This document shows positions 6,909 to 64,000 of a DNA stretch of 64,000 bases, piece after piece. The stretch's first letter is position 1, and the number at the start of each line of letters is the position of its first letter. This stretch comes from Pseudomonas sp. URMO17WK12:I2 (GTDB taxonomy: Bacteria > Pseudomonadota > Gammaproteobacteria > Pseudomonadales > Pseudomonadaceae). The position numbers and the translations under genes were made by a program. The notes under the pieces were generated by a model, which worked only from the letters and a program-made list of their open reading frames with translations, was not told where the DNA came from and ran no database searches. The DNA lies in NCBI RefSeq assembly GCF_003253735.1, contig NZ_QKYW01000004.1, positions 372,001 through 436,000 of the forward strand, read 5' to 3'.

Positions 6909-7337
6909 GTGGCGAAAGCGGCCGGTCGGCCGCTTTGCCTTTTTGGTGCTCCTCATTCCACAGAATTATCAGGCGGCACCAATCGCCCCTTCAGGAGGCC
7001 GAGCGGAATCGTTGTGGAGAGGGTTGAGCGACATGGATGTCGCGAGAGCCGTGATGGGCCAGGGACGGCCCTTCGCGGCGGGCCCTCGGAACAATGATGG
7101 AGCGAGGGAACCCCAGCGAAGCTGGGGCCGTATGCCGGGGCTAGACCTTTTGGTTTCTTTTGGCGGGGCCGGCCATCCGGGCGATGCCAAAAGAAACCCG
7201 CTCGACAGAGCGGAACCGAACGTATCCACAACGCGATAACGCTGGCAAACCACAGGTCACGCATAGCGCGTGGAACGTAAAGAGCTCGCGGCTAAAGCTC
7301 CTCCTACGAATTACGCGAACGACCGCTTCTGCCTTCT
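6909..7337 (+). repeat. Long dispersed repeat, copy 1
   Basis: About 430 bases, almost identical to the reverse complement of 51122-51533 and partly matched at 63594-63868. It begins with the terminator hairpin, continues through GGCACCAATCGCCCCTTCAG, holds a palindromic TTTCTTTTGGC / GCCAAAAGAAA pair and ends near ACGACCGCTTCTGCCTTC. Several frames are open across it, but the same frames reappear only because the DNA is repeated, and none resembles a known protein. No transposase is present. Confidence 0.85.
6915..6948 (+). terminator. Terminator after the NlpC/P60 gene (also in repeat copy 2)
   Basis: GCGGCCGGTCGGCCGC forms a tight stem followed by TTTGCCTTTTT. The same hairpin recurs in reverse orientation at about 51,500-51,530, because it belongs to the large dispersed repeat. 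Confidence 0.7.
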
Positions 7338-17539: not shown

Positions 17540-18097
17540 ATGGTCACCACTTGGCAGGTTCAGCAGGCAGCGCGCGTGGTGCGTGCCGGTGGCGTGATCG
17601 CCTACCCGACCGAGGCGGTCTGGGGGTTGGGGTGCGACCCGTGGGACGAGATGGCCGTGGATCGGCTGCTGGCGCTCAAGGAGCGGCCCGTGCACAAGGG
17701 GCTGATTCTGGTGGCCGACACCATTCGCCAGTTCGACTTTCTGCTCGAAGACCTGCCAGAGGCCTGGCAGGACCGCCTTGCCAGCACCTGGCCGGGGCCC
17801 AACACCTGGCTGGTGCCGCACCAGGATCGCTTGCCGCAGTGGATCACCGGTCAGCACGATACCGTGGCCCTGCGGGTCAGCGACCACCCGCGGGTGCGCG
17901 AGCTCTGTGCGCTGACCGGGCCGCTGGTGTCGACCTCGGCCAACCCAGCCGGTCGGCCGGCGGCGCGTTCGCGGTTGCGGGTCGAACAGTACTTTCCGCG
18001 GCAGCTGGATGCAGTGCTGGGTGGTGCCCTGGGTGGGCGGCGCAATCCGAGCGTGATACGTGATTTGGTCACCGGCGACGTGCGCCGACCAGCCTAG
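17540..18097 (+). CDS. tsaC: Threonylcarbamoyl-AMP synthase TsaC
   Basis: Makes threonylcarbamoyl-adenylate for the t6A modification of tRNA (YrdC/Sua5 family). It has 185 residues with the conserved [18 protein letters not shown] near the N-terminus and STSANPAG. The ATG at 17540 has a GGAGGT ribosome site. The TAG stop codon lies inside the terminal inverted repeat of the repeat element that starts at 18094. Confidence 0.96.
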
Positions 18098-18236
18098 AGC
18101 CGTTTATGATCAGCTGCGCGTCGGCCCTGCGGCGTTAAAAACAGACTCGGAATGCTCATGTACAACAGTACACTCCGCTTCCTCGCCTGTTTTTGCCTTG
18201 CATGGCTCTAGCTCGCAAGCTCATAAACGGCTCTAG
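18094..18236. repeat. Hairpin repeat element, copy 1 (MITE-like)
   Basis: A 143-base element bounded by a perfect 16-bp inverted repeat, CTAGAGCCGTTTATGA and TCATAAACGGCTCTAG. The interior holds CAGCTGCGCGTCGG, TGCTCATGTACA, GTACACTCCGCTT and TTGCATGGCTCTAGCTCGC. A second, diverged copy with different arm sequences is at 31453-31614. There is no open reading frame of note. It overlaps the last 4 bases of tsaC. Confidence 0.85.
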
Positions 18237-29252: not shown

Positions 29253-29884
29253 CACTCGACCTCCGTGGCCAGGGCGTTGATCGCCGCGGCGGCCATGGCG
29301 CTGCCACCGCGGCGGCCCTGGACGATCACGTAGGGCACGCCATGCTCGGCATAGGTGGTGGCGAGCAGATCCTTGGATTCGGCGGCGCCGACGAAGCCGA
29401 CCGGGAAGCCGAGAATCAACGCCGGTTTGGGCGCGCCTGCGGCGAGCATATCGAGCAGGTAGAACAGCGCCGTCGGCGCATTGCCGATCACCACCACCGA
29501 ACCTTCGAGGTGCTCGCGCCAGTGCTCCAGCGCCACCGCCGAGCGGGTGTTGCCGAGCTTCTTGGCCAGCTCCGGCACGCCGGCATCGTTGAGGGTGCAG
29601 ATCACCGGGTTGGCGGCCTGCAGGCGTGCACGGGTGACGCCTTCGGCGACCATACGGGCGTCGCAGAGGATCGGCGCACCATTGGCCAGTGCCTGGCGCC
29701 CGGCCGCTCCGGCACCGGGTGAGAAACGCAGATCCTGCACCACATCGACCATGCCGCAGGCATGGATGACCCGCACCGCGAGCTTTTCCAGATCAGCCGG
29801 AATACCGCTCAGGTCGGCCTCGGCACGGATGATGGCGAAGGAATTGCGATAGATCTCCTGACCATCGCGGATGTAATCGGTCAT
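29252..29884 (-). CDS. cobH: Precorrin-8X methylmutase
   Basis: Moves a methyl group from C11 to C12 to form hydrogenobyrinate. It has 210 residues with the active-site His in [10 protein letters not shown] and [13 protein letters not shown], both conserved in CobH/CbiC. It overlaps cobG by 4 bases (ATGA) and cobI by 1 base. Confidence 0.96.
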
Positions 29885-31236
29885 CGGGTGAAACTCCGGG
29901 TAGCGGTGAGCGAGGCCAGCAGTTCGGCGGCGTCGTCAGGTGTCAGGTGGTGGCCCAGCAACTGGCCGAAACCACTGCCGAGTGTCTGGCGGGCGAACAG
30001 GTCGTAACGACCTTCGGCCACGGCCAGCAAGGTGAAGGGCGCGCGGTGGGCAGCGGCGCAGGAGCGGCTGCAGCCCGTCAGGTGAATGCCTGGCTGCTCG
30101 TCGCCGGCAGGGAGCAGTTCTCCCAGGCGCAAGGCATCGGCCTTGGTGTCGGCCAGGCCCTTGGCGCAGCCGCTGGCGCCCGTGCAGGCGATGATATGAG
30201 CCAGCGGTTCGCTGGCATCGGTCAGCAGGCCGAGGGCACGCAGGTTGTGGATAACCGCATCGGCGGCCGTCTCGGCAATGTTGGCTAGAAGCACGCTCTG
30301 CCAGGGCGTCAGGCGCAGGTTGCCATCGCCGTAACGGCGGGCGAGATCCGCCAGGCCGAGTAACTGTTCGGCAGCCAGCCGACCCAGCACGGTGGCGGCG
30401 CCGATATGCACCAGACCCGGCTGGTGCTGAGCATGGACGCCAAGATGGGCATTGCCTTGCGCCGGGGCACGGCGCCAGTCGCCTGTCGGCAGCAGCGCAT
30501 CTCCCAGCCGCTCCTGCAGGCGCTGCAGCAGGTCGGCAGGCGAATGGTTTTCCAGCAGATGGCGCATGCGTGTCTGCTCGGGCTTGGCCAGCTCCAGGAA
30601 CAGGTCGAGCAGGGCGATGATCAGCGCATGGGCCTGGGCAGCGGGCACGATGGCCAGCGCCGGGGCATCGTTTGCCGAAACCGGCGGGCAACCGGCCAGG
30701 CCGAAGGCGTAGCCGACCCCCTCTTCGAGGGGCAAGGCGCAGAGCCAGATATCGTGGGGGTGTTCGAGCATCGCCAGGCGCTCACCACCGTCGAGCAGCA
30801 GGGCAAATTTTGGCGACAGGGCATGCAGGCGCGGGGTGTTTTCCAGCGTAGCCAGCAGCTCGGCGGCCAGGGGCGAGATATCCACAAGCGCCTGCGGATC
30901 GACCCCAGCGGCCGGGCTGACCATCAGGTTGCGCACGTCATCGGCGCCGGGCGTGCTGGGGCCTAGGCCGGCGTCCAGCAGCTCACCGATCAAGGCATCT
31001 TCATTGCCGGCGCGGATACCTCGAATCTGCAGGTTGCCGCGGTTGGTGGCTTCGATCACCCCGCCGGCATGCTGTAGCGCGGCCCTGGCGATGCGTTCTG
31101 CCTGGTCGACGTCGAGGCGCCCACAGGGCAACTTGATGCGGCAGATGCCGCCATCCTTCGCCTGCACGATACGCAGCAACCCCGGACAGGCCGAGGGGCG
31201 AACAGCAGGGGATGGAATGCAAAAAGCCTGTTTCAA
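29881..31236 (-). CDS. cobG: Precorrin-3B synthase (CobG)
   Basis: Oxygen-dependent iron-sulphur monooxygenase that prepares precorrin-3B for ring contraction; its presence marks the aerobic cobalamin route. It has 451 residues with the nitrite/sulphite-reductase half-repeat layout and the 4Fe-4S cysteines in ACTGASGCAKG and GCSRSCA. It is the first gene of the minus-strand cob operon, and its leader carries the interrupted cobalamin riboswitch. Confidence 0.94.
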   Translation of the reverse strand: MKQAFCIPSPAVRPSACPGLLRIVQAKDGGICRIKLPCGRLDVDQAERIARAALQHAGGVIEATNRGNLQIRGIRAGNEDALIGELLDAGLGPSTPGADDVRNLMVSPAAGVDPQALVDISPLAAELLATLENTPRLHALSPKFALLLDGGERLAMLEHPHDIWLCALPLEEGVGYAFGLAGCPPVSANDAPALAIVPAAQAHALIIALLDLFLELAKPEQTRMRHLLENHSPADLLQRLQERLGDALLPTGDWRRAPAQGNAHLGVHAQHQPGLVHIGAATVLGRLAAEQLLGLADLARRYGDGNLRLTPWQSVLLANIAETAADAVIHNLRALGLLTDASEPLAHIIACTGASGCAKGLADTKADALRLGELLPAGDEQPGIHLTGCSRSCAAAHRAPFTLLAVAEGRYDLFARQTLGSGFGQLLGHHLTPDDAAELLASLTATRSFTR

Positions 31237-31345
31237 CGGATCACCGGGGTCGGGTCACATGGGCATCCGTTCGAGGATAGGCCAGAGAAGGGTCAGCTTC
31301 TATCACCGGGACACCCCGCCCGGTGTGGGCTCATGCGACTGAATC

Positions 31346-31665
31346 GGTCGGCAGGTCTCCTGGCTCGCAGGTCATCGCGCCTGGCCGGCCTTCCCGGTTT
31401 CCCAGTGGCGATTGGCAAGGCGCTCGCTGCTACAGTTGCGGGGGCAGCCACGGCGGAAAAGCTGCCCAATAGCTGCTGCGCGTCGGTCCTGCAAGGCATA
31501 ACCTGACTGGAGCGCCAGCCCGGTCGGACTGCTCATGTACAGAAGTACACTCCGCTTTCTCGCCAATTTCTACCTTGCAGGGCTCTAGCTCGCTAGCTAT
31601 TGAACCGCTTTTCTCGTGTTCCCTCTTAGGCCCGCTTTTGCTCACATGTAGCCGCTGGGCACCGA
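31346..31665 (-). promoter_or_regulatory. Cobalamin riboswitch, interrupted by a hairpin repeat
   Basis: On the minus strand the 5' half reads GGTGCCC (31663-31657), then GGGCC-TAAGAGGGAACACG (to 31615). The 3' half resumes CGTGGCTGCCCCCGCAACTG (from 31452), then GCCACTGGGAAACCGGGAAG and AGCCAGGAGACCTGCC (to 31350). These are the conserved boxes of the adenosylcobalamin aptamer. The flanks CACG and CGTG pair, and about 160 bases of a hairpin repeat are inserted between them, where the GGTG/CC hairpin normally is. It leads cobG. Confidence 0.85.
31453..31614. repeat. Hairpin repeat element, copy 2 (inside the riboswitch)
   Basis: A diverged copy of the 18094-18236 element. Shared words include GCTGCGCGTCGG, TGCTCATGTACA, GTACACTCCGCTT, CTTGCA.GGCTCTAGCTCGC. 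Its arms, AAAAGCTGCCCAATAGCT and AGCTATTGAACCGCTTTT, pair with a few mismatches and differ from the arms of copy 1. It splits the cobalamin aptamer but, as a hairpin, could extend one of its stems. Confidence 0.82.
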
Positions 31666-31751
31666 CAGAGGCGCTATTATGCCCGCTTTGCCTGCCGGGA
31701 TGAAAAGCCGCGTCGTCGGATGGTAGCCATGCCCTACGAATCGCCGGCCTG

Positions 31752-51121: not shown

Positions 51122-51533
51122 AAGGCAGAAGCGGTCGTTCGTGTAATTCGTAGGAGGGGCTTTAGCCGCGAGCTCTTTACGTTCCACGCGCTATGCGTGA
51201 CCTGTGGTTTGCCAGCGTTATCGCGTTGTGGATACGTTCGGTTCCGCTCTGTCGAGCGGGTTTCTTTTGGCATCGCCCCAAAAGAAACCAAAAGGTCTAG
51301 CCCCGACATACGGCCCCAGCTTCGCTGGGGTTCCCTCGCTCCATCATTGTTCCGAGGGCCCGCCGCGAAGGGCCGTCCCTGGCCCATCGCGCCTCTCGCG
51401 GCATCCATGCCGCTCAACCCTCTCCACAACGATTCCGCTCGGCCTTCTGAAGGGGCGATTGGTGCCGCCTGATAATTCTCTGGCATGAGGAGCACAAAAA
51501 AGCCAAAGCGGCCGACCGGCTGCTTTCGCCATT
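51122..51533 (-). repeat. Long dispersed repeat, copy 2 (inverted)
   Basis: The reverse complement of 6909-7337 with a roughly 17-base deletion at GGGGCCGGCCATCCG, otherwise almost identical. It ends with the terminator hairpin GCGGCCGACCGGC. It carries one arm of the GGGGCTTTAGCCGCGAGCTC REP unit. Confidence 0.85.
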
Positions 51534-63502: not shown

Positions 63503-64000
63503 TCGGGGCCGTGGGGGAAGGGCTGCTACAAGGCAAAAGCGGACGGTCATCGCTGGCTTTGTAATGTCTTTCTTGCGCAAAAGTAACTGACGACGCCAAT
63601 CGCCCCTTCAGGAGGCCGAGTGGAATCGTTGTGGAGAGGGCCGGGCGGGCAGCCTTGAGCGACATGGATGTCGCGAGAGCCGCGATGGGCCAAGGATGGC
63701 CCTTCGTGGGGGGCCGCCTAGGTCGTGCCCTCGGAACAATGATGAAGCGAGGGAACCTCGGCGAAGCCGGGGCCGGATGGCGGGGCTAGACCTTTTGGTT
63801 TCTTTTGGCGGGGCCGGCCATCCGGGCGATGCCAAAAGAAACCCGCTCGACAGAGCGGAACCGAGCGCACAGGCAACTCGGTAATGCTGGCGGGCTCATT
63901 CTGGAGGGATGGGCTATGTCCATTATTTTCGCGGGCATGGCCCGCTCCCACAGATAGAGGTCTTACGTCCGCTTTCGCCACATAGCAGTACAACGCGCTA
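63503..64000. other. Right-end intergenic region: repeat copy 3
   Basis: No gene is supported in the last 498 bases. It contains long repeat copy 3 and, at about 63925-63957, a half REP unit (CGCGGGCATGGCCCGCTCCCACAG). Confidence 0.7.
63594..63868 (+). repeat. Long dispersed repeat, copy 3 (partial)
   Basis: It matches the middle of copies 1 and 2 from GCCAATCGCCCCTTCAGGAG to CCCGCTCGACAGAGCGGAAC, keeps the TTTCTTTTGGC/GCCAAAAGAAA pair and the GGGGCCGGCCATCCG segment found in copy 1, and carries short insertions (for example after AGAGGG). It lacks the terminator end. Confidence 0.8.

Follow-up and report, generated by a model that had tools for sequence, protein, structure and literature searches.

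Can a cobalamin riboswitch keep its function once a mobile hairpin has become lodged in one of its arms? The question is raised by the leader of cobG in Pseudomonas sp. URMO17WK12:I2, which lies within a 64,000-nucleotide stretch of contig NZ_QKYW01000004.1 (the whole stretch is called the window here, and all coordinates refer to it). The reading preferred here, to which a probability of roughly 0.78 is assigned, is that a MITE-like hairpin settled in loop L4 of the adenosylcobalamin riboswitch of cobG in the Pseudomonas straminea group, that P4 has thereby become a long arm with B12 control retained, and that hairpins of this kind have been accepted repeatedly in cobG leaders.

The riboswitch in front of cobG

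The riboswitch occupies positions 31333..31681 of the minus strand, where the Rfam covariance model RF00174 matches over its entire length (cmscan, model positions 1-189 of 189, from 31681 to 31333) with 95.8 bits and an E value of 1.3e-22, above the gathering score of 31.5 bits. The original prediction, made from the sequence, had recognised the riboswitch correctly and drawn it too short, at 31346-31665. It had also proposed that both halves of the aptamer are intact on either side of a hairpin element placed between CACG and CGTG; the sequence and the whole-model match, which includes the 5' half, bear this out. The model leaves out 162 nt inside the P4 stem-loop, with CACG on one side and CGTG on the other. 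Read along the minus strand, the order is P2 (GGTGCCC..GGGCC), UAAG, AGGGAAC, CACG, the 162 nt (31614-31453), CGTGGCTGCCCCCGCAACTG and the remaining aptamer up to AGCCAGGAGACCTGCC.

In the available text of PMC10653944 and PMC10907184, the ligand core of cobalamin riboswitches is the four-way junction of P3-P6, and L13 pairs with L5 (consensus UCCCG) in a kissing loop. Both partners are intact in the window: L5 (GCCCCCGC) at 31438..31445 and the P13/L13 hairpin (CACCGGG-CGGGGTGT-CCCGGTG), delimited by sequence and clade alignment, at 31304..31325, each on the minus strand. The L13 loop CGGGG (31318-31314) is complementary, as judged by eye, to CCCCG of L5. The insert replaces L4, the neighbour of the kissing loop; an insertion inside L5 itself was considered and ruled out, L5 being the adjoining GCCCCCGC loop by the consensus given in the available part of PMC10653944. 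Two further positions that are filled in other genomes carry no insert in this one, namely the UAAG of J2/3 (31625..31628, minus strand), which reads CTAAG with the preceding C, and the L6 region (CGCCACTGGGAAACCGGGAA, 31391..31410, minus strand).

A T-loop contact between L4 and L6 is normal in cobalamin riboswitches, according to the part of PMC10907184 that could be consulted. It was not found here, L4 being filled by the element, and it should be lost wherever an insert occupies L4 or L6. Elsewhere in Pseudomonas there are several short L4 loops that, by eye, do not resemble a T-loop either. Membership in RF00174 rests on the model score, and the L4-L6 contact is peripheral to it.

Downstream of the riboswitch, an open frame of 451 aa (29881..31236, minus strand) encodes CobG, precorrin-3B synthase (TIGR02435), followed on the same strand by frames matching precorrin-8X methylmutase, precorrin-2 C20-methyltransferase and precorrin-3B C17-methyltransferase. 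A pattern search of the leader gave, at its 5' end, a -10-like motif, CATAATA (31675..31681, minus strand), which is kept in relatives and would be a promoter element; a sigma-70 scan listed no site. The promoter/terminator scan gave no terminator-like site between 31200 and 32000 of the window. Five further cobalamin riboswitches match in the source genome.

The L4 element and its family

In CobG searches, the source genome falls next to P. argentinensis, whose CobG is 96% identical, and to P. punonensis, P. straminea and P. flavescens. Carriers of the L4 element are the sampled genomes G000, G378, G414 and G184, as well as P. argentinensis (L123), P. punonensis (L124) and Pseudomonas sp. PA27 (L125); inserts at the same place in the latter three rule out chance or an assembly artefact. 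Shorter inserts occupy L4 in G402 (83 nt) and G418 (a 34-nt remnant). A 17-nt loop is found instead of the element in P. straminea (L126; the leader of G167 is the same), P. flavescens, P. daroniae and P. seleniipraecipitans, all of the type CACGAGC(A/G)GA-NNN-TCTGC(C/A)GCGTG. Comparison with these relatives, which have the same aptamer with a short L4 loop, together with the covariance model, identifies the short hairpin that the element was originally proposed to have entered as P4/L4; in the four relatives the loop has the sequence just given, and is not the GGTG hairpin expected there. The RF00174 scores are 90.8-101.0 bits for six full-length L4-bearing loci (L123 was left out of this comparison), 100.9 for each of G402 and G418, and 102.4-105.3 for the four short-loop relatives.

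Outside the element, the leader of G184 resembles that of P. daroniae and the leader of G000 that of P. straminea. Carriers and non-carriers are thus found on both sides of the group, which implies loss, transfer or recombination. In the eight genomes searched for the arm TTCAATATCTAGCGAGCTAGAGCC, perfect matches were confined to the L4 copies of G414 and G184, and this restriction to L4 copies favours common descent of the G184 and straminea-group copies. Two separate L4 insertions, one in G184 and one in the straminea group, were considered and set aside as unproven; relatives of both lack the element.

The element itself (31453..31614, minus strand) is delimited by sequence, by its family members and by its covarying hairpin, and is 162 nt long between the P4 strands CACG (31618-31615) and CGTG (31452-31449). 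A second copy in the window (18097..18233, minus strand), found by sequence match, lies near tsaC, a gene name taken from the original prediction; the relationship suggested there between the two copies is reflected in an 86-nt stretch of 84% identity (18147-18232 against 31524-31609). With the insert as query, the source genome gives 51 blast pieces at E up to 1, its own copy included, corresponding to many dispersed short copies, and matches at E <= 0.001 occur in 12 of the 57 genomes of a sample of relatives, the source genome being one of them.

Twenty-two copies with recognisable ends were aligned: six from the L4 site, six from elsewhere in cobG aptamers, one from downstream of a cobG platform and nine from the source genome. 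Of the 50 pairs in the consensus hairpin, 31 are changed on both sides. Paired cells amount to 95.1%, against 84.3% in shuffles and 35-39% with slid partners, and none of 500 shuffles reaches the observed values, a comparison to be read with the caveat that related sequences can beat all shuffles without structure. Terminal inverted repeats are present in the form of helix 1: of its 18 pairs, 14 have changed on both sides, and 92.6% of its cells pair.

The ends could be named for 15 copies among 30 own-genome loci. TNA flanks them on both sides in eight cases, and 13 have it on one side or both. Identical 3-base flanks occur at six of 27 parsed copies, all six within these 15. At L2, J2/3 or L6, seven of nine main-family copies are flanked by TNA on one side or both; the flanks of the L4 copy are CGA/CGC, and not TNA. 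An IS5-family element in the source genome (L318, a match to NF033580) has the ends CTAGGTTTTGTACGAAAAGT and ACTTTTCGTACAAAACCTAA, and GTACGAAAAGT is common to it and to one hairpin subfamily (L023, L034, L035); a search for this one transposase family gave none with the ends of the main subfamily. From the TNA flanks and the resemblance of IS5-family ends to one subfamily, we infer a MITE-like family, probably of IS5 type; bacterial MITEs of the IS5-like kind are its closest known counterparts.

At many own-genome copies (L008-L036), the flank appears to supply a stop codon of a neighbouring frame, and the hairpin could act as a 3' end structure. In a search of plasmids, the 3' part of the riboswitch alone matched among the best 20 of 140 matches. 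The window also contains another repeat family, at 7079-7246, 51122-51531 and 63724-63891, whose copies are up to 99% complementary.

Occupied and empty positions in Pseudomonas cobG riboswitches

The 5' pattern of the leader matched 43 of 398 Pseudomonas genomes. The final set also numbers 43, G140 having been dropped and G260, found by its 3' part, added; more diverged cobG riboswitches could escape both the 5' and the 3' searches. G140 (L314) retains the conserved 5' motif before cobG, with no aptamer seen in the stretch read. All 43 riboswitches lie in front of cobG. Their 5' part and P4 were measured in each genome, and the 3' part was judged by alignments, profile search and reading.

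A hairpin repeat or its remnant lies inside the aptamer in 22 of the 43, at L4, L2, J2/3 or L6; the profile alone gave 20, the remnants in G418 and G268 being seen by eye. A repeat nested in a riboswitch arm had initially been called unusual, and proves to be common for this Pseudomonas riboswitch. L4 is occupied in G000, G378, G414, G402, G184 and G418, and L2 in G398, G113 and, in the opposite orientation, G401. At the CTAAG of J2/3, the MITE-like family is inserted in G007, G399, G389, G129 and G214 and an unrelated repeat in G197, G083, G275, G084, G222 and G290. L6 is filled in G186, G275, G084, G222 and G290, and holds a remnant in G268. The remaining 21 of the 43 aptamers, including those of G174 and G278, are free of inserts, and inserts in L5 or a core helix were seen in none of the 43. 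Since the genomes are related, genome counts are not event counts; by site, orientation and repeat family, as judged by eye and not from a tree, there were at least seven separate insertion events and probably about ten.

Several of these loci are more elaborate. In G275, G084, G222 and G290 (L270, L271, L272, L312), each aptamer contains two unrelated hairpin repeats, one at J2/3 and one at L6, with about 260 bases inserted. The second repeat family (GGAAACTCTGAAATAG..; L246, L247, L270, L271, L272, L312) uses the same CTAAG site as the MITE-like family. In G174 (L238) and G278 (L239), a hairpin copy follows the expression platform and precedes cobG; G401 contains further pieces of the element.

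Other cobalamin riboswitches served as a control. In 21 genomes, 98 were above the cut-off, 13 of the cobG type and 85 others, at least 68 of the latter in genomes with known element matches. A profile match of either repeat family was found in none of the 85, a count that covers the aptamers which the model still recognises and in which remnants would be missed by the profile. Of 94 loci checked by profile, which include some duplicates, some cobG loci and some loci of other genomes, only that of the window itself (L005) matched; L262-L266 were covered by a separate profile search, and hits were assigned to loci by hand.

The distribution of inserts could in part have a different origin, a tentative explanation that is rather less than an even bet and may hold beside the main reading: the transposase would prefer sites resembling CTNAG as well as the intergenic region of cobG, and RNA structure would play no part in where copies lie. 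The CTAAG within J2/3 is consistent with such a hotspot at the DNA level, as are the frequencies of TNA flanks given above, both for own-genome copies and for those at L2, J2/3 and L6, and the copies or pieces near cobG in G174, G278 and G401. However, the L4 copy has flanks other than TNA, CTAAG likewise occurs at J2/3 of a different cobalamin riboswitch of the source genome (GAGCTAAGAGGGAAC, L001), which is free of inserts, and no insert turned up in L5 or the core helices.

A probable extended arm, the constraint on the aptamer, and parallels

In the preferred reading, in which the insertion is tolerated, a MITE-like hairpin would have settled in L4; being a hairpin, the element would leave the P4 strands paired, and the aptamer would fold with P4 as a long arm. 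The predicted minimum-energy and centroid structures join P4 and the element in a single hairpin that contains small bulges. Folding of the leader thus agrees with the original prediction for this arm, although the unconstrained fold does not reproduce the known junction. The ligand-binding four-way junction and the L5-L13 readout are untouched in sequence, so that cobG would stay under B12 control without the usual L4. The cobG leader would repeatedly accept hairpins at terminal loops and at J2/3, a pattern seen among the 43 riboswitches, presumably because an arm is added at these positions and no helix is broken. The host would keep the aptamer under selection, and the element would drift or shrink by internal deletion, as the shorter inserts in G402 and G418 suggest.

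The long arm might also be cut by RNase III, with the two RNA pieces joined by P4 and tertiary structure into a working aptamer, in analogy to 23S rRNA with intervening sequences. This is compatible with a tolerated insertion, so that the odds of the readings do not sum to one, and it appears doubtful: the hairpin is long and covarying, but the arm has bulges. Precedents are nevertheless available. In the 23S rRNA of Coxiella, the hairpin of an intervening sequence in helix 45 is excised by RNase III, leaving an rRNA that is fragmented yet functional (PMC4990558, available part), and RNase III can cut or protect the Correia elements of Neisseria (PMC2649163, available part). A broader picture, in which mobile hairpins would occur in every terminal loop but the kissing loop, some doubly, and RNase III would make some of the hosts into two-piece yet B12-sensing riboswitches, seems improbable.

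Evolutionary rates bear on whether the switch still works. Relative to the rate at fourfold sites of cobG, that of aptamer plus platform has a median of 0.22 (range 0.02-0.37) in 21 pairs of seven L4-bearing sequences, a set that includes the shortened G402 and counts G378 and P. punonensis once; in six pairs of four relatives without the element, the median is 0.26 (range 0.12-0.34). The similarity of the two ratios indicates no relaxation. For example, G000 and G378 differ at 1 of 228 positions of aptamer and platform, a low value to which recombination of the leader could have contributed, at 10 of 162 positions of the element and at 57 of 249 fourfold sites. Between the doubly occupied G275 and G084, the differences are 5 of 216 in the aptamer, 8 of 114 and 9 of 144 in the repeats and 15 of 56 at fourfold sites. 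The opposite trend is found at J2/3 in G007 and G389 (aptamer 24 of 194, element 4 of 142, fourfold sites 17 of 53; G399, L237, was not parsable in this comparison), where the aptamer has changed more than the element, so that a better conserved aptamer is no general rule.

All 17 leaders and all 18 loci scanned pass the gathering score, although for J2/3 and L2 inserts the coordinates put the 5' part of the model on element sequence. Moreover, the L5 motif CTGCCCCCGCAACTG is kept in all 43 cobG aptamers, 42 of which were found via their 5' end and not by the motif. A broken switch should lose constraint, and its retention is evidence for function, though not proof. On these sequence comparisons, a tolerated insertion with a working switch is favoured over a broken one, and selection probably still acts on the switch, whose P4 would form a long arm. 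Of the two outcomes envisaged in the original prediction, the much extended arm is therefore preferred, and the other, in which the insertion would have broken the switch and left cobG constitutive, or silenced by the long hairpin, beside an aptamer decaying as a relic, is quite unlikely: the insert does replace L4, which in the available text of PMC10907184 takes part in a T-loop contact with L6, and the covariance scores lie somewhat below those of short-loop clade members, but the rate for aptamer and platform is about 0.2 times that at fourfold sites in carriers, much as in non-carriers, the L5 motif persists throughout and the region has no terminator-like site.

The inserts amount to what seems a natural insertion scan of a riboswitch, in which L2, J2/3, L4 and L6 accept a hairpin of about 110-200 nt and none was seen in L5 and the core helices; accepted and empty positions together outline the needs of the switch. 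This suggests that a sensing RNA can accommodate mobile hairpins. Should the switch function without the contact between L4 and L6, this lineage can dispense with that contact. Close relatives offer matched leaders with and without the element.

The components are of known kinds. A possible formation of riboswitches by MITEs has been raised in a review (PMC10969869, as far as its available text goes). No report of MITEs inside aptamer loops was found in the openly licensed literature searched, which is weak evidence of novelty, and the available part of a paper on stem-loop families (PMC2267715) contains no mention of repeats inside aptamer loops. The window riboswitch resembles other members of RF00174 in its full model match, its L5/L13 complementarity and its place before a cob operon; it differs in that L4 is a 162-nt mobile hairpin, with hairpins in L2, J2/3 and L6 of relatives. 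The element shares with bacterial MITEs its small size, its many copies, its terminal inverted repeats and, at many copies, TNA flanks, whereas the arms of this hairpin family vary between copies and yet remain self-complementary.

A repeat element is also part of a riboswitch leader in front of the pneumococcal trp operon, where a BOX element is joined to two T-box riboswitches in a leader that appears still to work in the available description (PMC3049150); the BOX element lies between two riboswitches, in contrast to the cobG element, which lies inside one aptamer, in a loop. With the intervening sequence of 23S rRNA (PMC4990558, in the part available), the cobG leader has in common a foreign hairpin within a helix of a structured RNA that still works, as the cobG switch probably does. 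The host RNA differs, being a riboswitch here, and excision, known for the rRNA of Coxiella, is hypothetical for the cobG leader.
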